A DNA stretch of 37,045 nt from Candidatus Woesearchaeota archaeon (lineage in GTDB: Archaea > Nanobdellota > Nanobdellia > SCGC-AAA011-G17 > GW2011-AR18): assembly GCA_016179945.1 (NCBI GenBank), contig JACPCE010000006.1, forward strand, positions 1-37,045, written 5' to 3'. The position numbers and the translations under genes are program-made. Below, piece by piece: positions 1,892 to 23,662 of the stretch (its first letter is position 1; every line of letters begins with the position of its first letter). The notes beneath the pieces were generated by a model, which saw nothing but the letters and a program-made list of their open reading frames with translations, made no database searches and was not told where the DNA came from.

Positions 1892-2420
1892 CATTAACTA
1901 TATGTGATAAAGCCTTAGCAATTAACTCTCCAAATTGTTTAGCAGCCTTTGGACCTGAAGCACTTACAATCCTTCCAGAAACTTCAACATCATTTCCAGT
2001 GTATTTTCCCCCATTCTTCTCAATTAATTCTTTTGTATCAGGCCAGCCAGTTGCATTTTTATTTTTAAATATTCCAGAATTAGCCAAAGTTCCAGAGCCT
2101 AAGCATATAGAAGCAACAATTTTTCCCTTGAGATAAGACTCTTTAGCAATATTCAATGCAGTTTTATCATTCCAGTATATTGTGCTTCCCTGTCCTCCAA
2201 CAAAGACAATAGCATCATAATCATTAACATCTATTTTGTTAATTATTAAATTTATCGTAACCTTAGCACCAAGCATACCAGAAGCTGTACCTAAAATATT
2301 ACTAGCAACAACAGTCTTCGCTTTGTAGTTTTCTAGAATTTTTCTAGGTTCTAATAATTCCTCATCCCTAAAATTATTTGGAGCAATAACAAACAAAATT
2401 ACTTTTCCGCTTAAATCCAT
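1884..2420 (-). CDS. DJ-1/PfpI family protein
   Basis: This 178-residue class I glutamine-amidotransferase-like protein has the DJ-1/PfpI nucleophile elbow ASICLGSG with Cys106, an acidic pair near residues 20-21 (RDEEL) that would contact the cysteine, and the GGQGS turn near 75-79. Relatives act as peptidases, glyoxalases or protein and nucleotide deglycases; which applies here cannot be told from sequence. There is no signal peptide. It is the first gene of a pair with the Toprim gene (8-11 bp overlap). The ATG at 2420 follows an AT-rich promoter-like stretch (TAATATTTAAAAC in the gene orientation). Confidence 0.85.
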   Translation of the reverse strand: MDLSGKVILFVIAPNNFRDEELLEPRKILENYKAKTVVASNILGTASGMLGAKVTINLIINKIDVNDYDAIVFVGGQGSTIYWNDKTALNIAKESYLKGKIVASICLGSGTLANSGIFKNKNATGWPDTKELIEKNGGKYTGNDVEVSGRIVSASGPKAAKQFGELIAKALSHIVNDE

Positions 2421-2503
2421 ATAATCATTAGGATATAATAATATTTAAAACTAACTAAGACTAATTCAGAAAACTATAAATACAATTAGAAAATATATAA
2501 TTT

Positions 2504-3034
2504 ATGAATAGATATAAACTGCAGAAATATTTATACACAATTCCAAACTTTATAACTTTATTCAGATTTTTATTAATACCTTTTATTTTATATTTTATCG
2601 TTAAAGATAAAATGATTATAGTAATAATTTTATTTTTAATAACTACTTTATCTGATATGTTCGATGGTTTTTTAGCAAGAAAACTAAAACAGTCAAGTTA
2701 CTATGGTGGAATGTTTGATGCATTCACAGATACAATATTAATATTGTCAACAATTACTTTTACTTATTTAACAAACCATATTTCTGGAATAATTTTATTA
2801 ATATTATTGGCGCCAAAAATAATAACTTTTTTATTCCTGACATTTCTATATAAAGGGGAATATAAACCAACAATATTTTCTAGATTATCATCATTATTTT
2901 TTTATATTTCAATACCGATATTTTTATTAGATTTAGAAATAGTTGTAGAATATTTATTAATAATTACTGTTTATATTTTATCAGCAATACATTGGATGAA
3001 ATTAATATTGGATAAATTCAACCTAAAATTCTGA
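2504..3034 (+). CDS. CDP-alcohol phosphatidyltransferase, membrane
   Basis: An integral membrane enzyme of 176 residues with the complete family signature DxxDGxxARx8GxxxDxxxD: D51, D54-G55, A58-R59, G68, D72, D76. Hydrophobic segments fall near residues 12-33, 37-52, 78-96, 97-117, 126-146 and 147-163, the usual six. The family transfers a phospho-alcohol from a CDP-activated lipid (CDP-archaeol in archaea) to glycerol phosphate, inositol phosphate or serine, making polar lipid headgroups. The short form resembles PgsA-type enzymes, but the acceptor cannot be read from sequence. Its last 17 bp overlap the end of the convergent eL18 gene. Confidence 0.88.
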   Translation: MNRYKLQKYLYTIPNFITLFRFLLIPFILYFIVKDKMIIVIILFLITTLSDMFDGFLARKLKQSSYYGGMFDAFTDTILILSTITFTYLTNHISGIILLILLAPKIITFLFLTFLYKGEYKPTIFSRLSSLFFYISIPIFLLDLEIVVEYLLIITVYILSAIHWMKLILDKFNLKF

Positions 3035-3380
3035 CCTTTTTTCCTTTAGGATTTTCTTTCATTAATTGCTGAATAGAAATTGCCTTTCCTGTTTTGTTTA
3101 TTTTTTCTCTTGCTTTATCAGAAAACTTGAAAGCAGCAACAGTTAGTTTTTTATTTATCTCGCCTTCAGAAAGAACTTTTCCAGGAACAACAGCTATTTC
3201 TCCATCTCTAGTATATTTTTCTATTTTATATAAATTAACTTTTCTTCTTTGTCTTGTTGATTTGCTTAGGTCTTCTGCCAATCTTCTCCATAGCTTTACT
3301 TTTTCCTTTGTTGATAGGCTCTTTAGGTCTGCTATTAATTTCTTTAATACTAAACTTGTTGGTCCTGTTCTTTTTGCCAT
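3018..3380 (-). CDS. rpl18e: 50S ribosomal protein eL18 (L18e)
   Basis: A 120-residue protein matching archaeal/eukaryotic L18e along its length: a basic N-terminus (MAKRTGPTSLVLKKLI), the central LWRRLAEDLSKSTRQRRKVNLYKI-like region, VVPGKVLSEGE near 67-77 and a C-terminal KVRILG. It is part of the large ribosomal subunit. In many archaea it heads an operon with uL13 and uS9; here it stands alone between a lipid gene and a tRNA. A TATA-like CTTATAAAC lies 21-29 nt before the ATG with no room for a ribosome-binding site, suggesting a leaderless message. Confidence 0.93.
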   Translation of the reverse strand: MAKRTGPTSLVLKKLIADLKSLSTKEKVKLWRRLAEDLSKSTRQRRKVNLYKIEKYTRDGEIAVVPGKVLSEGEINKKLTVAAFKFSDKAREKINKTGKAISIQQLMKENPKGKKVRILG

Positions 3381-3400
3381 ATTTTTGGTTTTTTATTTTG

Positions 3401-3409
3401 GTTTATAAG
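3401..3409 (-). promoter_or_regulatory. TATA-like box for the eL18 gene
   Basis: The minus strand reads CTTATAAAC 21-29 nt before the eL18 ATG at 3380. This is the archaeal TATA spacing for transcription that starts at or next to the start codon. Confidence 0.5.
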
Positions 3410-3524
3410 GTTTTCTCTAAAGGTTTTTTAAATACAACTAAGAAAAATATTAAAGTCAATCAAAATTAGAAAAGAAACAAAACAGACTTCTGTGGATTCG
3501 AACATGAAAATGCGGAGAACAGGA

Positions 3525-3562
3525 TTTTCGTTTTTTACTCAAGCTTTTGGAAAAAGCTTGTA
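3525..3562 (-). other. T-loop intron of tRNA-Leu (38 nt)
   Basis: The insertion lies between T-loop positions 59 and 60. Exon TTCG can pair with CGAA near the intron 3' end, giving the 4-bp central helix of a bulge-helix-bulge. It is flanked by 3-nt bulges AA^T on each side and by the 5-bp T-stem. Cutting inside the bulges restores TTCGAAT exactly. The intron holds a perfect 9-bp hairpin, CAAGCTTTT-TCC-AAAAGCTTG. The inner helix next to the first bulge is weak, so this is a relaxed motif. Confidence 0.75.
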
Positions 3563-3609
3563 TTCGAACCTGCGTAGGCCTAAGCCACTAGGTCCTTAGC
3601 CTAGCCCGT

Positions 3610-3636
3610 AAAGCCCATTTTGCTTAAAGCTTGTGT
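3610..3636 (-). other. D-loop intron of tRNA-Leu (27 nt)
   Basis: The insertion follows AGTGGCCAA in the D-loop. Exon GGCC can pair with GGCT near the intron 3' end (one G-U), giving a 4-bp central helix with bulges AA^A and TT^A. Removal joins GGCCAA to ACGG, leaving a normal class II D-arm. The boundaries could shift by about one base, and the inner intron helix is only about 2 bp. Confidence 0.65.
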
Positions 3637-3695
3637 TTGGCCACTCCGGCATCCCCGCATAAAAATTAAGAATAAAATTTTATTTATTAATTTAT

Positions 3696-4736
3696 CTAAA
3701 CATAGGATCTGTCTATTGTTTTATCCAAGTACAAAACCCTAAGTGCTTTCACAATTTTAGGTTCTATTCTCCTTCTGTGTTCAAGAGCATATTCATACAT
3801 ATCTCCATTTATACCTAATTTTGTTATAGTATATTTTCTTCTATTACCCATATCACTGTCTTGATATATCTGACTTGCCATTCTATAACTCAAACGCTTT
3901 CCTGAAAAACTTGCAATAAAATCACGAGTAACTTTTCTTTTTCCTTTTATTCTAATAAAAAGTACATTTACAACATATTCCCTTAAACCTAAGAAATAAG
4001 CAATGTCTATGGGTGGAATATCTAAATCAAATCCCCTGTATACTGCCTCTTTTTTGTAAACAGGTGTAACAACTCTTTTTCTAGAACCATTTAGAGGTTC
4101 TAAACCAACACATTTAAGAATTCTCCCAATACTTGCAGGAAACATTCCATTGTCTTTAGCTAATTTTTCCAAGCCTATTTTTCTCCCCTTTTTTAAAGCA
4201 AAATAATATTGTTCAAATATATTATATAATCTACTGTAAGAAAAGTTTGTTCTTTTAGTTAAAATATATTGCATTGCTTTTTCCCTTGCTATATTGCCTT
4301 CTTTTCTTGCTTTTTCAAGAGCAATTTGTCTTAAGCAAGTTATTAATGCTGAAACAACACTCCTTGAAGAATAAAGTCTATTATTGTTTTCTAAAGGTCT
4401 TGAAACTTCATCAAGTATTTTTCTATTTTCTACCCATTGATTATATTGCCCTGTATATCTAATATAGTTTAATACAGATTGTCTACTTGTTTGACATATT
4501 AATCCAATATTTCTAAGCGATAAACCGCCATCTATGCAAGAATCAGCATCAGAATTTAATCCTCTGTAAGGTTCAAGATCTTCAGGAATATGAATATGGT
4601 GAATTTCACAAACTTTCATCAATCCACTAGGTTTTAATCTTGTCCTAAAACAAAGTTCTTCTAAAGAGTTTACACCCTTAGATAAAGCCTTCCTGATAAT
4701 TGGAACAGCTAATTGTCTCTTTGTTATTCTTCTCAT
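3696..4736 (-). CDS. Putative DNA-binding protein with several HTH-like units
   Basis: I do not recognise a named family for this basic 346-residue protein. It contains at least four stretches with helix-turn-helix character: about 20-50 (SLEELCFRTRLKPSGLMKVC), 72-98 (SLRNIGLICQTSRQSVLNYI), 183-212 (GLEKLAKDNGMFPASIGRIL) and 240-262 (PIDIAYFLGLREYVVNVLFI). Each resembles the others in spacing, as in a repeat-built DNA-binding protein. Isoelectric character is high, with many Arg/Lys, and there are no membrane segments. It starts at ATG 4736, divergent from GluRS, and ends 37 bp before the tRNA-Leu, so the tRNA could sit on the same transcript. It may be a regulator or a chromatin-type protein. 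Confidence 0.6.
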   Translation of the reverse strand: MRRITKRQLAVPIIRKALSKGVNSLEELCFRTRLKPSGLMKVCEIHHIHIPEDLEPYRGLNSDADSCIDGGLSLRNIGLICQTSRQSVLNYIRYTGQYNQWVENRKILDEVSRPLENNNRLYSSRSVVSALITCLRQIALEKARKEGNIAREKAMQYILTKRTNFSYSRLYNIFEQYYFALKKGRKIGLEKLAKDNGMFPASIGRILKCVGLEPLNGSRKRVVTPVYKKEAVYRGFDLDIPPIDIAYFLGLREYVVNVLFIRIKGKRKVTRDFIASFSGKRLSYRMASQIYQDSDMGNRRKYTITKLGINGDMYEYALEHRRRIEPKIVKALRVLYLDKTIDRSYV

Positions 4737-4845
4737 AAAAATAAAACCTTGTAAACAATTATAAAACTTGTGCTAATGTAACTACTTAAAAATAGTTTAA
4801 TTAAAACTTAGTTAAATATAAAAACAAAACAATTACCTATTTTTC

Positions 4846-6318
4846 ATGAATGAATTAATCTACAAACATACACTTCATAATGCAATAAAATATGAAGGTA
4901 AAGCAAATCCTGGAGCAATCATAGGCAAGGTTCTTTCTGAAAATCCAGAATTAAAAAAAGATATGAAATATTTAAGCAAGGAAATATCTGAAATAATAAA
5001 AAAAGTAAATTCTATGAAATTAAAAGACCAGATTGAAGAATTAAAAAAATTAGCTCCAGAATTACTAGAGGAAAAGAAAGTAGTAGAAGAGAGAAGACTT
5101 CCCCCATTAAAAAATGTTAAAAATCAAGTAATTCTTAGAATAGCTCCATATCCATCTGGACCATTACATATAGGTAATGCAAAGCAAGTTGTAATTAACG
5201 ATGAATATGCAAAAATTTACAAAGGAAAATTGATTTTAGTAATAGATGATACAATAGGAAGCGAAGAAAAAAATATAGAACCAGATGCTTATAGATTAAT
5301 TCCAGAAGGTTTAGAGTGGTTAAATATTAATTTTGATAAGAATATAGTTTACAAATCAGATAGATTAGAAATTTATTATAAGCATGCTGAAGAACTGATA
5401 AAAAAAGGAATGGCTTATACATGTAAATGTTTATCTGAAATATTAAGAGAAAAAAGGGCAAAAGGAATAGAATGTTCTTGCAGAAAATCTGAAGTTTCTA
5501 ATGTTTTATCAGAATGGTATGGTATGTTAAAAGGAAATTACAAAGAAGGACAAATAGCTCTAAGATTAAAAACAAGTATGAATAATCCAAATCCTGCTTT
5601 TAGAGACAGAGTATTATTTAGAATATCAGAAAGAACACATCCAAGAGTTGGAAATAAATACAAAGTTTGGCCAATGCTTGAATTTTCCTGGGCTGTTGAT
5701 GATTATTTATTAAAAATAACCCATGTAATTAGGGGAAAAGAATTAATGATAGAAAGCGATATGGAAAAATTCATCTGGGACATATTTAAGTGGAAAGGTC
5801 CAGAATTAATCCATACTGGATTATTGACAATAGAAGGAGTAAAATTAAGTAAAAGTAAAAGTAAATCTGAAGTTAAATCAGGAAAGTACTTTGGATGGGA
5901 TGATCCAAGAACTTGGAGTTTGCAGTCATTAAAGAGAAGAGGTTTTAAGCCAGAAGCTGTGAGAAATTTCATTCTAAGCTTTGGTGTTAATGAACATGAA
6001 TCAATGGTTTCTGTTGACAAATTTTATTCAGAAAGCAGAAAATTAATTGAATCAGAAGCTAACAGATATTTTTTAATTGAAGATCCTATTGAAATTGAGA
6101 TTAAAAATTCTCCTGAACAAGAGATAGAATTAAAATTGCATCCAGATTTTCCTGAAAGAGGATTTAGAAAATATGATGTAAGTAACAAATTTTACATTTC
6201 TAAAAAGGACTTTGATAATTTAAAAGACAACAAGATAAATAGATTAATGGACTGCTTGAATTTTGTTAAAAAAAAGAATAAATTTATTTTTGATAGTAAC
6301 AATTACATGGAGAAATAA
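4846..6318 (+). CDS. gltX: Glutamyl-tRNA synthetase (archaeal type), C-terminally truncated
   Basis: An archaeal class I GluRS that charges tRNA-Glu (and in many archaea also tRNA-Gln). The N-terminal helical extension (1-90) is archaeal. The HIGH motif is APYPSGPLHIG (100-110) and the KMSKS equivalent is KLSKSKSKS near 328. The frame stops after LMDCLNFVKKKNKF and SNNYMEK at residue 490, where family members continue for another 70 or so. The very next bases, in another frame, encode the conserved GluRS C-terminal end (see 6315-6449). About 25-30 residues that normally lie between are missing, so a deletion with frameshift has removed part of the anticodon-binding beta-barrel, unless the assembly is wrong here. 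The catalytic core is intact. Confidence 0.88.
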   Translation: MNELIYKHTLHNAIKYEGKANPGAIIGKVLSENPELKKDMKYLSKEISEIIKKVNSMKLKDQIEELKKLAPELLEEKKVVEERRLPPLKNVKNQVILRIAPYPSGPLHIGNAKQVVINDEYAKIYKGKLILVIDDTIGSEEKNIEPDAYRLIPEGLEWLNINFDKNIVYKSDRLEIYYKHAEELIKKGMAYTCKCLSEILREKRAKGIECSCRKSEVSNVLSEWYGMLKGNYKEGQIALRLKTSMNNPNPAFRDRVLFRISERTHPRVGNKYKVWPMLEFSWAVDDYLLKITHVIRGKELMIESDMEKFIWDIFKWKGPELIHTGLLTIEGVKLSKSKSKSEVKSGKYFGWDDPRTWSLQSLKRRGFKPEAVRNFILSFGVNEHESMVSVDKFYSESRKLIESEANRYFLIEDPIEIEIKNSPEQEIELKLHPDFPERGFRKYDVSNKFYISKKDFDNLKDNKINRLMDCLNFVKKKNKFIFDSNNYMEK

Positions 6319-17148: not shown

Positions 17149-18867
17149 ATGAAAAACCAAGAGGTGGCTGAAATTCTCTATAAAGTAGCAGACTTGTTAG
17201 AGCTACAGGATGAAATAAGATTCAAATATTTAGCTTATAGAAAAGCAGCTCAAACAATAGAAAGTTTATCTCAAGATATTTTAGAAATATACAAAAAAGG
17301 AGGAATAAAAGCTTTGGAGGAAATTCCCTCAATAGGCTCTGCTATAGCTCAAAAAACTGAAGAAATTATAAAAACTGGAAAATTAAAATATTATCAAGAT
17401 CTAAAAAGTAAAATTCCGATTGATGTTGATTCTTTAATGAATATCGAAGGCTTAGGCCCAAAAAGAATAGGCATTTTATACAAAAAACTAAAAATTAAAA
17501 ATATTAAGGAACTAGAAGAGGCTGCAAAAAAAGGCAAGATAAAAAATATTTCAGGTTTTGGTCCGAAAGTAGAAGAAAATATTATAAAAGCAATTGAATT
17601 TTCTAAAACTTCCAAACAAAGGTTTGTTTTAGGATTCGCATGGCCTTCAATCAAAGAATTAGAAAATAAAATTAAATCAATTAAAGAAGTTGAAAGAGTA
17701 GAAATATGTGGTAGTTTTAGAAGAAGAAAAGAAACAATAGCTGATTTAGATATTTTAACAATTAGTTCAAATCCAATAAAAGTTATGGAAGCATTCACTA
17801 AATTAGAAGATGTAAAAAGAATTTTAGCAAAAGGAAAAACAAAAAGCACTGTAATAATAAAAAATAATATGCAGGTTGATCTAAGAGTTCTTCCAAAAGA
17901 AAGTTTTGGTGCTGCTATGCAATATTTTATAGGAAATAAAAACCATAATGTTAAGTTAAGAAAAATTGCTATATCTAAAGGATACAAATTAAGCGAATAC
18001 GGCTTGTTCAAAGGAAAAAAAATAATAGCTGCAGAAGATGAGAAGGAAATTTACAAAGCCCTTGGTTTAGAATACATTGAACCAGAAATGCGCGAATATA
18101 CAGGAGAAATAGAATTAGCTATGAGAAATAAACTTCCAAAATTAGTTCAATTAAAAGATATTAAAGGTGATTTGCACATGCATACGAATGAAAGTGATGG
18201 TTTGAATACAATGGAAGAAATGATTGAAAAAGCAATTTCTTTAGGAAGGGAATACATTGTAATAAGTGATCATACTGGATTTCTGCAAGTAGCTCATGGA
18301 TTAAACGAAAGGCAATTGCTGAAGCAAAAAGAATTAGTTGAAAAAATGAATAAAAAATATGAAAATAAAATTAAAGTTTTAAGTGGATGTGAAGTTAATA
18401 TAAAAGACAGTGGAAAGCCAGATATTAAAGAATCAGTTCTAAAACAATTAGATGTAGTGACTGCAAGCATACATTCAGGGTTTAAAGGTTCAGAAGAAAA
18501 AATAACAAAAAGAACAATTATTGCAATGGAAAATACAAATATTGACATAATTGGTCATCCAACAGGAAGGGTTTTGCAAAAGAGAGAACAATTTTCAATA
18601 AATATGAATAAAATATTTGAAAAAGCAAAAGAAACAGGAACATGTCTTGAAATAAATGCATTTCCTACAAGACTTGATTTAAAAGATATTCACATCAGAG
18701 AAGCTGTAAAAGATAAAGTTAAACTAGTTATATCAACAGATTCACATGAAATAAGTCATCAAGAATTTATGCAGTTTGGAGTATGGCAGGCAAGAAGAGG
18801 ATGGGCTGAAGCAAAAAATATCTTAAATACCTTGCCACTGGATAAGTTTTTAAAAAGCTTAAAATAA
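17149..18867 (+). CDS. polX: DNA polymerase X family with PHP domain
   Basis: This 572-residue gap-filling repair polymerase has the standard PolX layout. An N-terminal helix-hairpin-helix domain (about 5-75, IPSIGSAIAQKTEEI) and a second hairpin (98-112, GLGPKRIGI) come first. The nucleotidyl-transfer palm follows, with GSFRRRKETIADLDIL (188-203; metal ligands D199 and D201). Residues 335-572 are a C-terminal PHP domain with DLHMHTNESDG, VISDHTGF, SGCEVNI, STDSH and related His/Asp clusters that bind three metals. PHP domains in PolX give 3'-5' exonuclease activity. The length is full. Nearby AP-lyase and exonuclease genes suggest a repair neighbourhood. Confidence 0.93.
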   Translation: MKNQEVAEILYKVADLLELQDEIRFKYLAYRKAAQTIESLSQDILEIYKKGGIKALEEIPSIGSAIAQKTEEIIKTGKLKYYQDLKSKIPIDVDSLMNIEGLGPKRIGILYKKLKIKNIKELEEAAKKGKIKNISGFGPKVEENIIKAIEFSKTSKQRFVLGFAWPSIKELENKIKSIKEVERVEICGSFRRRKETIADLDILTISSNPIKVMEAFTKLEDVKRILAKGKTKSTVIIKNNMQVDLRVLPKESFGAAMQYFIGNKNHNVKLRKIAISKGYKLSEYGLFKGKKIIAAEDEKEIYKALGLEYIEPEMREYTGEIELAMRNKLPKLVQLKDIKGDLHMHTNESDGLNTMEEMIEKAISLGREYIVISDHTGFLQVAHGLNERQLLKQKELVEKMNKKYENKIKVLSGCEVNIKDSGKPDIKESVLKQLDVVTASIHSGFKGSEEKITKRTIIAMENTNIDIIGHPTGRVLQKREQFSINMNKIFEKAKETGTCLEINAFPTRLDLKDIHIREAVKDKVKLVISTDSHEISHQEFMQFGVWQARRGWAEAKNILNTLPLDKFLKSLK

Positions 18868-20303: not shown

Positions 20304-20923
20304 TAATAGTAGATGTTGAAACAACAGGCTTTGATCCTAACAAACATTCCATAGTAAGTATTGGAGCAATAGACTTAGAAAATCCTAATAACCAATTTTA
20401 TATAGAAAACCAAATTTGGGATGGAGCAGAAATTTTTGAAGAGGACCCATTATTACCAGGCCCAGGTTATGTATCCTCATTATCAGTTAATGGATTTACT
20501 AAAGAGCAAATAAAAGACAAAAACAAACCAACATTAAAAGAGGCAATAGGACTTTTTCTTAAATGGACAGAAAGTTGCAATATAAAACTTTTAGCAGGAC
20601 ATAATCCTTATTTTGACATGGACTTCTTAAGGTCATCTGCATTAATTCACGGTATGGCATGGAAATTAAGTTATAGAACAATTGATCTTCATACTGTTGT
20701 TTACTTAAGCCATAAAAAAAGAGGATTAAATCCACAAAAATTAGGTTCAACAGAATGTTTTAATTATGTTGGTCTTCCAGAAGAACCAAAACCACATAAT
20801 GCTTTAAAAGGAGCAAAGATGGAAGCTGAAGCTTTTTATAGGTTAATTTACGGAAAGCCCCTTCTAGAAGAATTTAAGAATTATCAAGTTCCGGATTATT
20901 TATCAAACCTTGCTCAAAAGTAA
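20300..20923 (+). CDS. DnaQ-like 3'-5' exonuclease with altered final motif
   Basis: A 207-residue DEDD-superfamily exonuclease. Exo I is IVDVETTG (D5, E7), Exo II is AGHNPYFDMDFL (D106 or D108), and Exo III is HNALKGAKMEAEAF (H166). In classical DEDDh enzymes the fifth residue after this His is Asp; here it is Gly171, with E175 and E177 nearby. Relatives with HNAL.GA...EAEA seem to exist, so this may be a subfamily that uses a different acid. The 4-bp overlap with ogg suggests a joint role in repair. The gene ends inside the convergent regulator gene (21-bp overlap). Confidence 0.8.
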   Translation: MIIVDVETTGFDPNKHSIVSIGAIDLENPNNQFYIENQIWDGAEIFEEDPLLPGPGYVSSLSVNGFTKEQIKDKNKPTLKEAIGLFLKWTESCNIKLLAGHNPYFDMDFLRSSALIHGMAWKLSYRTIDLHTVVYLSHKKRGLNPQKLGSTECFNYVGLPEEPKPHNALKGAKMEAEAFYRLIYGKPLLEEFKNYQVPDYLSNLAQK

Positions 20924-21754
20924 GTCTTCAATTTTTTCTAGGTCATTAATTCTATTTTCTATTGGTAGTGCATTGCTGTGCAGATTCCAAAATACTTTTT
21001 CCAGCCATTCAACCCAATCCTTGTCATAAATATTATATAAAATATACAAGTCTTTACTAAGTTCATTTTCCTTATAGTCTTGTTTCTTTTTCTCTTCTCT
21101 TAATCTAGCAATTTTATCATCAACAACAAAACCTCTTAAAGGCTGTTCAATATGCCTGACTTCCACTGCATCATAACCAACTAAATGATTTAGTTCTATA
21201 ATCTTTTTAATATTATTAATAGAAGCTATGTCAACCCTGCATAGTATTTTTATATTAATTCTTTTCCTTGCAAGTTCTCCCAAGACATCAATTAATCTAA
21301 TGTTATTATATATATCATTAATGAAAGATATATTTCCAGAAAAAATAAACAACTGCCTGTTTGTAGATTTAAAAATATCAAATAATTTTTGGTCTTCTAT
21401 TTTATCCTGAAAACTGACAAAAGCTTCTTTCTTATTTTGATCAACTAAACTATAAACATCAAAAGGATTAAAATCATACTTTTTCTTTCCAGATCTTATT
21501 TTGTCTAATAAAATCTGCTGTGCAGTACTTGCCCTCATGCCTTCTAAGTTAGCCCAGTAAACAATTTTTAATGCGCCTTTAGTCCCGCCTCTAAAAGTCT
21601 TTATCTTAATAGTACCATATTTCTCAATGATATAACTTATGTATTTATCAGCAGTTACCCAGCTTACTTTTAGAAGTTCAGCAATTTCCTTTACAGCCCT
21701 AGGTTGTTTATAAACAAATTCATTTACAGCTTTTATTGCATCAGGAGTAAGCAT
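20903..21754 (-). CDS. HTH regulator with degenerate PLD-like domain
   Basis: A 283-residue likely regulator. Residues 5-65 form a winged helix (VKEIAELLKVSWVTADKYIS). Residues 95-260 resemble the phospholipase-D-like ligand domain found in TrmB-type and other archaeal regulators (KLFDIFKSTNRQLFIFSGNI; RGFVVDDKIARLRE), but no HKD motif remains. A C-terminal DWVEWLEKVFWNLHSNALPI is also typical. I start at ATG 21754; a TATA-like CTATATAAG lies 21-29 nt upstream, which rules out the GTG at 21775. It shares a 77-bp intergenic space with the divergent reverse transcriptase operon and may control it. Confidence 0.65.
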   Translation of the reverse strand: MLTPDAIKAVNEFVYKQPRAVKEIAELLKVSWVTADKYISYIIEKYGTIKIKTFRGGTKGALKIVYWANLEGMRASTAQQILLDKIRSGKKKYDFNPFDVYSLVDQNKKEAFVSFQDKIEDQKLFDIFKSTNRQLFIFSGNISFINDIYNNIRLIDVLGELARKRINIKILCRVDIASINNIKKIIELNHLVGYDAVEVRHIEQPLRGFVVDDKIARLREEKKKQDYKENELSKDLYILYNIYDKDWVEWLEKVFWNLHSNALPIENRINDLEKIEDLLLSKV

Positions 21755-21774: not shown

Positions 21775-21810
21775 CTATATAAGTTTTTTGATGGCAAATA
21801 CTTATACTTA
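21775..21810. promoter_or_regulatory. Two divergent TATA-like boxes, regulator and RT operon
   Basis: Minus-strand CTATATAAG at 21775-21783 serves the regulator (ATG 21754). Plus-strand CTTATACTTA at 21801-21810 is 22-31 nt before the RT ATG at 21832. The two promoters nearly touch, so a protein bound here would affect both. No structured RNA fits in the space. Confidence 0.45.
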
Positions 21811-21831
21811 CTAAAACACCTATATAATTCT

Positions 21832-22797
21832 ATGAGTTTAACATTAGAGATAGGACTTCAAGATAATAAACCTGCTATAAAGTCCTATAAAACTGAACTT
21901 TCACAATATCTTTCAGATTTAACTCATCCTTTAGAAGTTCTAGAAATAAGTCATAGAAGAAAGGAATTAACTGATATTTTATTAGATCTAACAGAAACAA
22001 CTCAATTATCTCTGCTTTGTGATGAATCAGAAACATTAGATCATTTATTTGATGGATTATTACAATTAAGAAAAGAGAAAAGGCCCCTTTATAAGAGATT
22101 TCAAAAGGAAATTAATGGAAAAACTAGAGATCTTGCTGTTCCACAAAAACCGCTTGATTTGTTCTTAAGAAATTATGCTGGACCTATAATAAATCAAGCA
22201 GAATGTCATGCACAAGCACATGGTGGGGAAAATAATTGGAGTCTAACAGAAAGCATAAAAACACATTTACCAATAGGTATTGCATTATCATTTGATTTAT
22301 CACAGGCATTTAAAAATACACATTTACAGTATGTATTTGATTTTTATTATAGTCTAATATACAAAAAAACAAGAGATAAAAAAACAAGCACTGATTTAGC
22401 AGGATTTTTAGCTACAGTATCAACTGTCTATTATAGAGACGGAGGTTATGCTCTTCCTCAAGGTTCAAATATTGCTACAAAGTTGTTTAATAGATTGCTT
22501 TATCCAATAGATGAATCACTTAGTAACTATGCCAAAAATAGAAATTTAACTTACACAAGATGGATAGATGATTTTATTCTAGCATCAAAAGATAGAGATA
22601 AAACAAATAAAGAATTAATAGAAGCTACAAATATTGTTCAACCATATTTTCCTTTATCTGAAAAAAAGACTTTTCTTCAAAGAGACAAACCTGTCTACTT
22701 ACTGGGGCAAAAGATTGTAGACTGTTGGATTACTAAAGCAACTACTAAAGAAATTCAATCAAAAAATCCAATGAAATCAACAACACATTACTTATAA
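21832..22797 (+). CDS. Reverse transcriptase, retron/UG-like size, motif C WIDD
   Basis: This 321-residue protein has RT motifs in order. The fingers motif is YKRFQKEINGKTRDLAVPQK (87-106), followed by an AHGG.....S region (129-137). Motif A is ALSFDLSQAF (D155, F160). Motif B is ALPQGSNIATKLFNRLL (207-223). Motif C is TRWIDDFILAS (catalytic D246-D247), and motifs D/E are SEKKTFLQRDKPVYLLGQKI (276-295). The three catalytic Asp are present. The usual YADD reads WIDD. There is no maturase or endonuclease domain and the length equals retron or abortive-infection-type RTs. It is co-transcribed with an HExxH peptidase 2 bp downstream. Its own promoter lies right before the ATG. Confidence 0.88.
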   Translation: MSLTLEIGLQDNKPAIKSYKTELSQYLSDLTHPLEVLEISHRRKELTDILLDLTETTQLSLLCDESETLDHLFDGLLQLRKEKRPLYKRFQKEINGKTRDLAVPQKPLDLFLRNYAGPIINQAECHAQAHGGENNWSLTESIKTHLPIGIALSFDLSQAFKNTHLQYVFDFYYSLIYKKTRDKKTSTDLAGFLATVSTVYYRDGGYALPQGSNIATKLFNRLLYPIDESLSNYAKNRNLTYTRWIDDFILASKDRDKTNKELIEATNIVQPYFPLSEKKTFLQRDKPVYLLGQKIVDCWITKATTKEIQSKNPMKSTTHYL

Positions 22798-22799
22798 TC

Positions 22800-23228
22800 A
22801 TGCAAAACTATAAGGAGATACACACCTGGGAGCATACATGTAGTTCAAATATATTAGTAGAACGTATTAAAAAATATCCATTAAACAGAGAGTTGCTAGC
22901 GGAATTTGGAACTAGAAATAAAGTCTTCATTACTCATAAAGATATTACACCCACATATGGTTTATGTCATAGATATGATAATGATTTTCATATAACAATT
23001 AATAGAGAAATCTCAAGAAGAGAAAGAGAAATTACTTTAGTCCATGAACTGTGTCATGCAGTATATAAAGATAGATTAATGTGGATGAGGTCTAATAAAG
23101 ACAATTTAGAAGTTATTATAGAGGAAACAGGCGTAAGATTATACTCAGAAAACAATGTTTTTTTCAAAGAACTTTATAAAAAAATAGCACCAATTGAATG
23201 GAAACAGGAGGAATTTATTTTTAATTAA
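22800..23228 (+). CDS. HExxH metallopeptidase-like protein (ImmA/IrrE-like)
   Basis: This 142-residue protein has a zinc-peptidase motif VHELCHAVYKD (H82, E83, H86) and a downstream acidic helix EVIIEETGVRLYSE (E108/E109), which could supply the third ligand. This is the arrangement of ImmA/IrrE-like gluzincins, which cleave repressors in mobile elements and defence modules. The preceding strand (DNDFHITINREI) is also typical. There is no helix-turn-helix, so it is the peptidase part only. The ATG lies 2 bp after the RT stop, indicating tight translational coupling. A partner or substrate is not visible unless it is the divergent regulator. Confidence 0.75.
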   Translation: MQNYKEIHTWEHTCSSNILVERIKKYPLNRELLAEFGTRNKVFITHKDITPTYGLCHRYDNDFHITINREISRREREITLVHELCHAVYKDRLMWMRSNKDNLEVIIEETGVRLYSENNVFFKELYKKIAPIEWKQEEFIFN

Positions 23229-23229
23229 A

Positions 23230-23313
23230 ATGACAAAGCATATAATAATAGGAGAACCTGGATTTAGAAAAACAAATTTTATTAAAAAACCTTATTTTAA
23301 ACTACTCAGTTAG
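23230..23313 (+). CDS. 27-residue micro-ORF with P-loop-like start
   Basis: The ATG lies one base after the peptidase stop. The peptide begins MTKHIIIGEPGFRKTNFI: a hydrophobic strand followed by GEPGFRKT, one residue away from a Walker A GxPGxGKT. It ends after 27 residues. It is either the stump of a decayed P-loop gene that followed the RT and peptidase, or a small coupled peptide. The next gene has its own TATA-like box downstream of this stop. Confidence 0.35.
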   Translation: MTKHIIIGEPGFRKTNFIKKPYFKLLS

Positions 23314-23344: not shown

Positions 23345-23662
23345 ATGGACGACTTGGTTTCTTTAATTGAAATAATGAAATATAATTTAGAGTCTATTGA
23401 AAAGGAGATAAAAAAATTAGAGAAATATAAAAATAATATCATTTACATAAGGTTAATCATTTTGGAAATAAACAAAATAAAAGTTAATCTAGATAACATG
23501 AATAAAAGCAAAATAAGAACCATAACAGATTTAATTAGAATAATATTAAGAAGATTAAAAAGAATAAAAGCAGAAGGTGAAGATGAAAAAATAAAGGCAG
23601 TTATTGATGGAAATTTAAGGGAATTCCTAGTTCTATTAATAAAATTGGATGGTAAAATTTAA
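23345..23662 (+). CDS. Small helical hypothetical protein
   Basis: A 105-residue, almost entirely helical, Lys/Ile/Glu-rich protein (SIEKEIKKLEKYKNN; IRTITDLIRIILRRLKRIKA). It is probably a coiled coil or helical bundle, with no cysteine, signal or membrane span. A private TATA-like box sits just upstream, so it is more likely a start of the debranching-enzyme transcript (38-bp gap) than the end of the RT operon. The family is not recognised, and low complexity makes homology hard to judge. Confidence 0.5.
   Translation: MDDLVSLIEIMKYNLESIEKEIKKLEKYKNNIIYIRLIILEINKIKVNLDNMNKSKIRTITDLIRIILRRLKRIKAEGEDEKIKAVIDGNLREFLVLLIKLDGKI

Follow-up and report, generated by a model that had tools for sequence, protein, structure and literature searches.

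The window analysed here is a 37,045-nucleotide stretch of contig JACPCE010000006.1 from a Candidatus Woesearchaeota archaeon, whose genome (0.78 Mb, 74% complete) is called G000 below. It contains a reverse transcriptase (RT) gene with three small open reading frames downstream and a divergently oriented regulator gene upstream. Coordinates are given in Table 1. The initial annotation, made from the sequence alone, described an HExxH protein 2 bp after the RT, a 27-codon ORF 1 bp further on and a divergent PLD-like regulator, and this layout holds on all points, with the HExxH gene on the same strand as the RT. It also placed the genes behind one TATA-like box. A TATA-like element is indeed present, but two divergent promoters fit better than a single box. 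The predicted boxes lie about 25 bp from the start codons, and leaderless mRNAs are therefore implied. The regulator probably starts at the conserved ATG, which gives a protein of 283 aa, and not at the annotated GTG (290 aa). Upstream of the regulator, between positions 17149 and 20923 of the window, genes for a PolX-like protein, an AAA_28 kinase-like protein, an 8-oxoguanine glycosylase and a DEDD exonuclease stand in a row.

Table 1. Features of the RT locus, in positions of the window.
Feature	Position	Strand	Basis or remark
TrmBL2-like HTH + PLD-like regulator	20903..21754	-	conserved ATG 21754; annotated GTG start 21775
Operator box 1, TAGTGTTTAA	21768..21777	-	candidate; resembles order-wide motif TAGTGTTGTA of regulator promoters
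TATA-like box of regulator, CTTATATAG	21775..21783	-	predicted; ~25 bp from ATG 21754; overlaps operator box 1
TATA-like box of RT, CTTATACTTA	21801..21810	+	predicted; ~26 bp from ATG 21832
Operator box 2, AGGTGTTTTA	21812..21821	-	spacing to box 1 exactly 44 bp; RT start codon follows after 10 bp
Thumbless retron-side reverse transcriptase, 321 aa	21832..22797	+	RVT_1, PADLOC, tree, AlphaFold, PDB fold
HExxH zincin-like protein, 142 aa (M78/IrrE-like at cut-off)	22800..23228	+	lineage-specific
27-codon ORF, probable AAA_28 kinase N-terminal stump (Walker A, G to R)	23230..23313	+	shuffles
105-aa helical ORF	23345..23662	+	directly after broken RT in G005:C27, peptidase missing there

The reverse transcriptase and its relatives

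The RT matches the Pfam family RVT_1 at 9.7e-10, well above the cut-off. The catalytic aspartates recognized in the initial annotation, D155 in the motif SFDL and D246 and D247 in RWIDDF, are intact and invariant in all eight aligned sequences. An N-terminal helical extension of about 80 aa precedes the polymerase core. In the AlphaFold model (pLDDT 84) helices are absent past residue 309, and the C-terminal end consists of short strands and one small helix; the model therefore has no thumb. The nearest PDB fold is that of retron Ec86 (TM 0.57), with further fold matches to DRT9 (7.2e-9) and, more weakly, to AbiK (8.6e-7). On the basis of this model, the RT comprises palm and fingers with intact catalytic residues but has neither a thumb nor the msr-binding region. 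Thumb loss is known from AbiK, Abi-P2, and Cas6-RT-Cas1 (PMC9508834) and is therefore not diagnostic of the UG, Abi, or DRT groups.

In the HMM libraries, retron RTs outrank those of DRT, group II, and CRISPR systems. The best PADLOC model is RT_II-A (1.3e-21), and the top 25 PADLOC matches are retron-type RT models apart from one CRISPR RT; retron_St85_RT has 3e-18 but reaches just 66 of 235 bits. A profile search of the PDB matched retron Ec86 (3e-12). Matches to DRT/Abi models fall far under their cut-offs (Drt2, 27.6 of 390 bits; Drt3a, 22.5 of 200 bits). The group II maturase model TIGR04416 scores 21 of 300 bits and Rfam has no match at the locus, in agreement with the earlier reading that a maturase domain is absent. 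We placed the RT in a tree of 27 rows, which was built without UG references and carries a long-branch warning. Eight archaeal RTs form a single clade on its retron side (100/100), set apart by a stem 2.1 changes per column long. The DGR-type RTs of the window's genome and of phage Mushu split from this clade with 100/100, and group II RTs lie on the opposite side of a 100/100 branch. The HMM and phylogeny checks proposed by the initial annotation thus leave the RT on the retron side but in its own clade; they speak against group II and DGR kinship. Its description as a stand-alone archaeal RT is upheld, and the protein lies outside the known clades sampled. We found no description of a retron-side RT in Woesearchaeota in the literature. 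The window's genome separately contains two DGR-type RTs with the motif LGNLTSQFF, an open copy on G000:C17 (L001:1294-2358) and a copy split across two frames on G000:C14 (L002:1013-2757).

We ran profile searches against the order (103 genomes), the class (378), and the phylum (371), and these recovered the RT in only seven genomes (7 of 103 in the order). The carriers are all three genomes of the window's genus (G000, G001, and G002) and G005, which belongs to their family; G019, G050, and G079 come from other families, and G079 has two copies. GTDB contigs supplied one further RT, in a Pacearchaeon. The clade is small, made up of Woesearchaeota and this one Pacearchaeon, and its branch, on the retron side of the tree, is long. 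A viral or plasmid origin was considered and rejected: IMG/VR contained no relative, and phages and plasmids yielded just retron-like RTs at about 25% identity. Beside the second RT of G079, on L030 (G079:C14, ORFs 2142-5893, with masked bases), is a topoisomerase-like gene that is apparently interrupted by an intein-like segment.

The RT of the window is 50% identical to that of G001, 52% to that of G002, and about 82% (aligned part) to that on contig G005:C27. The last copy has lost 140 bp, including the YxDD motif, and the RT is therefore dispensable in G005. Exonuclease, regulator, and RT share 84, 96, and 82% identity between the window and G005:C27, and the debranching enzyme just beyond them shares 70%. 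This excess over the flanking gene suggests that the exonuclease-regulator-RT block was exchanged as a unit. The 6-kb contig itself (L012) may be mis-binned or recently transferred, because a second such block sits on G005 C21. Values of dN/dS are 0.32-0.45 for the RT against 0.04-0.10 for the regulator. The RT is therefore under purifying selection, constrained yet fast-evolving.

Retron RTs are marked by the motifs NAXXH and VTG together with region Y, an msr-binding stretch of about 90 aa (PMC6868368). In region X the archaeal RTs have S-I/L-x-x-H in place of NAXXH (SIKTH, SLESH; SIKSI in G001), and the RT lacks VTG and region Y, having YLLG followed by just 29 aa. We found no adjacent msr-msd RNA. 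Upstream, just 77 bp separate the RT from the ATG of the regulator, and the operator and promoters fill them; 2 bp remain downstream, and an Rfam search returned no retron RNA at the locus, all of which fits the earlier remark that there is no space for one. An RNA hidden within the RT reading frame was rejected, as synonymous change shows no clear, consistent drop. These findings count against a divergent archaeal retron with an ncRNA that is unrecognized or supplied in trans, although the top HMM, PDB, and fold matches and the tree position, on the retron side and distant from DGR and group II, speak for it. Also in its favour, the small ORF behind the RT differs among the genomes of the genus; the window's peptidase, a wHTH protein in G001, and a 145-aa helical protein in G002 would then be exchangeable effectors. 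In G005, the ORF after the RT is the counterpart of the 105-aa ORF that lies downstream of the window's peptidase; the RTs of G019, G050, G079, and the Pacearchaeon are followed by none of the wHTH, helical, or 105-aa ORFs. On balance, we consider a retron unlikely.

The divergent regulator, its operator and a nucleotide regulon

The regulator has only sub-threshold Pfam matches. Its AlphaFold model (pLDDT 87) is matched by Foldseek to TrmBL2 (1.6e-8) and then to PLD nucleases, with a global TM of only about 0.4. By fold search, it combines the HTH and PLD-like sensor domain that characterize TrmB-type proteins. Of the eight RT loci in Woesearchaeota, six, from three families, have it next to the RT or nearby, and it shares 96, 83, and 76% identity with its counterparts in G005:C27, G001, and G002. 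It is absent at both G079 loci and at that of the Pacearchaeon, and a search of G079 turned up no matching regulator. The conserved partner of the RT is this divergent regulator, which the initial annotation touched on only briefly, and not the protease. The reverse does not hold, and we rejected the HTH-PLD protein as an RT-specific partner: it occurs in 31 of the 103 genomes of the order, mostly without the RT, against 7 for the RT. It is therefore a general regulator with the RT as one client.

The promoters of the regulator share a recurrent box, TAGTGTTKTA. In 29 such promoters there are 11 exact boxes and 25 with at most one mismatch; mononucleotide shuffles give 0 and 0.5, respectively. 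Across the order, the boxes are commonly paired exactly 44 bp apart, and in the window each of the two divergent promoters carries one. A search of the 103 genomes for 44-bp twins with up to two mismatches gave 17 sites (3 exact, 5 with one mismatch), and 11 of these sites belong to promoters of the regulator or the RT. The 49-bp wrong-spacing control gave 9 sites at the same threshold, none exact and none at these promoters. In G002, an AAA_28 kinase gene lies between regulator and RT and each of the two has its own 44-bp pair, that of the RT at -63/-19. The G050 boxes are at -72/-28, and in G019 the divergent unit bears a box and has the RT as its second gene. The operator is absent at the G079 and Pacearchaeota RTs.

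Allowing up to three mismatches, the order-wide pattern finds one site in G000, one in G001, and four in G002, and these include every RT and regulator site of the genus. The window's own pair has three mismatches to the general motif, and the reversed-pattern control in G000 gives two sites against one; at this threshold the pattern does not clearly outperform its reversed control. Assignment of the window site therefore rests on its position and its relatives. The operator region is conserved while the RT has diverged to about 50% identity. Membership of the RT in the regulator's regulon is well supported, and we infer that the regulator binds the twin boxes.

Genes of nucleotide metabolism and genes for nucleoside-kinase-like ATPases lie around both regulator and operator. 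Divergent from the regulator are genes for thymidylate kinase, thymidine kinase (twice), a dCTP deaminase-like protein, MazG, and AAA_28 kinases; NrdR is co-directional with it; and CTP synthase, a full dCTP deaminase, dihydroorotate dehydrogenase, and dNK adjoin it. The genes named here are a plain listing, and for many further neighbours Pfam gave no match. On G032:C47 (L115:1969-2022 and flanks), in a genome without the RT, a 44-bp twin box with one mismatch precedes a unit of ThyA and thymidylate kinase, which is likely a core target of the HTH-PLD regulon. An AAA_28 kinase on a separate G005 contig lies behind another twin box with one mismatch. The regulator, with its twin operator at 44 bp, appears to define a nucleotide regulon of this archaeal order, for which we found no description in the literature. 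The regulator would accordingly be a sensor of nucleotide state, and the arrangement suggests that the RT is switched by the cell's dNTP supply. Two further observations concern the operator. A PD-(D/E)XK nuclease is encoded on the other side of the G032 twin operator from the ThyA and thymidylate kinase unit, and in G058 and G042 (L117 near 2282-2335, L118 near 4527-4580) the twin operator stands before a conserved uncharacterized ORF (ALEILLENPE...).

Possible roles and comparison with known systems

We propose a regulator-RT cassette under nucleotide-state control, in which the thumbless RT has an antiviral or stress role, and give this reading about an even chance. The TrmB-type HTH/PLD protein would bind the twin boxes, whose 44-bp spacing amounts to about four helical turns, over both divergent promoters, and would control its own gene and the RT. 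Elsewhere in the order, the same operator, or a position beside the regulator, would serve nucleotide-metabolism genes. A change in nucleotide state, sensed by the regulator, would lead to production of the RT, which would then most likely synthesize DNA without a dedicated retron RNA. Such synthesis could form an antiviral or stress response linked to dNTP supply, loosely resembling that of DRT9. For the RT itself, we infer DNA synthesis with a role in defence or repair. More tentatively, these RTs may represent a minimal, thumbless, RNA-independent archaeal class within a nucleotide-pool regulon, DNA-synthesizing enzymes that a transcriptional sensor of dNTP state would set off for defence or repair.

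No clear defence genes were found in the flanks of the locus, where only a DEDD exonuclease clearly matched PADLOC, and repair genes lie upstream. A domesticated housekeeping DNA-repair polymerase, which would fill or join DNA at low dNTPs alongside its neighbours, therefore stays a serious rival, and one to which we assign a low probability. The PolX-like protein, Ogg (PF22175), and RNase_T/DEDD exonuclease directly upstream in the window agree with it, as do the Ogg and exonuclease that accompany the regulator in G005 also, the presence of the RT in every genome of the genus, and the nucleotide-linked regulator. Repair neighbours are not seen by the RT in G019, G050, and G079, however, and rapid evolution relative to the regulator (dN/dS 0.3-0.45 against 0.04-0.10) and patchy occurrence (7/103 genomes) are poorly suited to housekeeping.

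The initial annotation instead proposed a two-component defence or regulatory cassette of the RT and the HExxH protein. The 2-bp spacing and shared strand invite this reading, and the HExxH protein reaches the Peptidase_M78 cut-off exactly (22.0/22.0 bits, 1.5e-4), with further weak matches to DUF6782, SprT-like proteins, and capP (0.0013). The survey of RT and HExxH adjacency gave the outcome that the annotation had itself set down as counting against its proposal, as the peptidase is absent from the homologous loci: it lies beside the RT in none of G001, G002, G005, G019, G050, G079 (two copies), or the Pacearchaeon, and the pairing therefore fails. No close homologue occurs among 371 genomes of the phylum, and the viral contigs searched gave one weak match. 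The nearest relatives in the genus, in G001 and G002, share 29-30% identity and lie on other contigs by a TruD-like gene. The peptidase is a lineage-specific gene and not a conserved partner of the RT, and a cassette of the two is very improbable.

The 27-codon ORF (MTKHIIIGEPGFRKTNFI) resembles the first residues of AAA_28 kinases, for example one beside the G002 RT. Its score against AAA_28 is reached by 1 of 1000 shuffles, and BLASTP with it returned no match. It is probably a stump of an AAA_28 kinase and not a peptide gene. That stump, the patchy distribution, and the 140-bp deletion in the G005 copy might indicate a decaying selfish remnant without function, which we regard as the least credible reading of all given that at the other loci the reading frame is open and the catalytic residues are intact, dN/dS is well below 1, and the operator region was kept while the RT diverged.

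The preferred regulator-RT cassette would be of interest on several counts. Its RT is without the parts by which retrons grip RNA, its regulator with a readable operator offers a testable handle on the purpose of such an RT, and its regulon would belong to an archaeal order known mainly from metagenomes. It would tie RT activity to nucleotide supply, a link known experimentally from bacterial DRT9.

The RT shares fingers and palm with retron RTs (Ec86/Eco1 and relatives), which are nearest by sequence, HMM, fold, and tree. It differs from them in lacking NAXXH, VTG, region Y with the thumb, and an adjacent RNA, and in being archaeal and having the N-terminal extension and ties to a TrmB-type regulator. 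AbiK and Abi-P2 likewise lack a thumb while keeping an RT-like palm and fingers (PMC9508834), but the RT described here has no C-terminal helical domain and is closer to retrons in sequence. The regulator has the HTH and PLD-like C-terminal domain of TrmBL2 and the TrmB family, but stands outside a sugar context and has instead a conserved 44-bp twin operator and nucleotide-gene neighbours. DRT9, which the RT resembles in fold, is a stand-alone defence RT tied to nucleotide supply: phage escapers map to the viral ribonucleotide reductase, and immunity hinges on nucleotide supply (PMC12483538). DRT9 needs an essential ncRNA, whereas the nucleotide link proposed here would be transcriptional.
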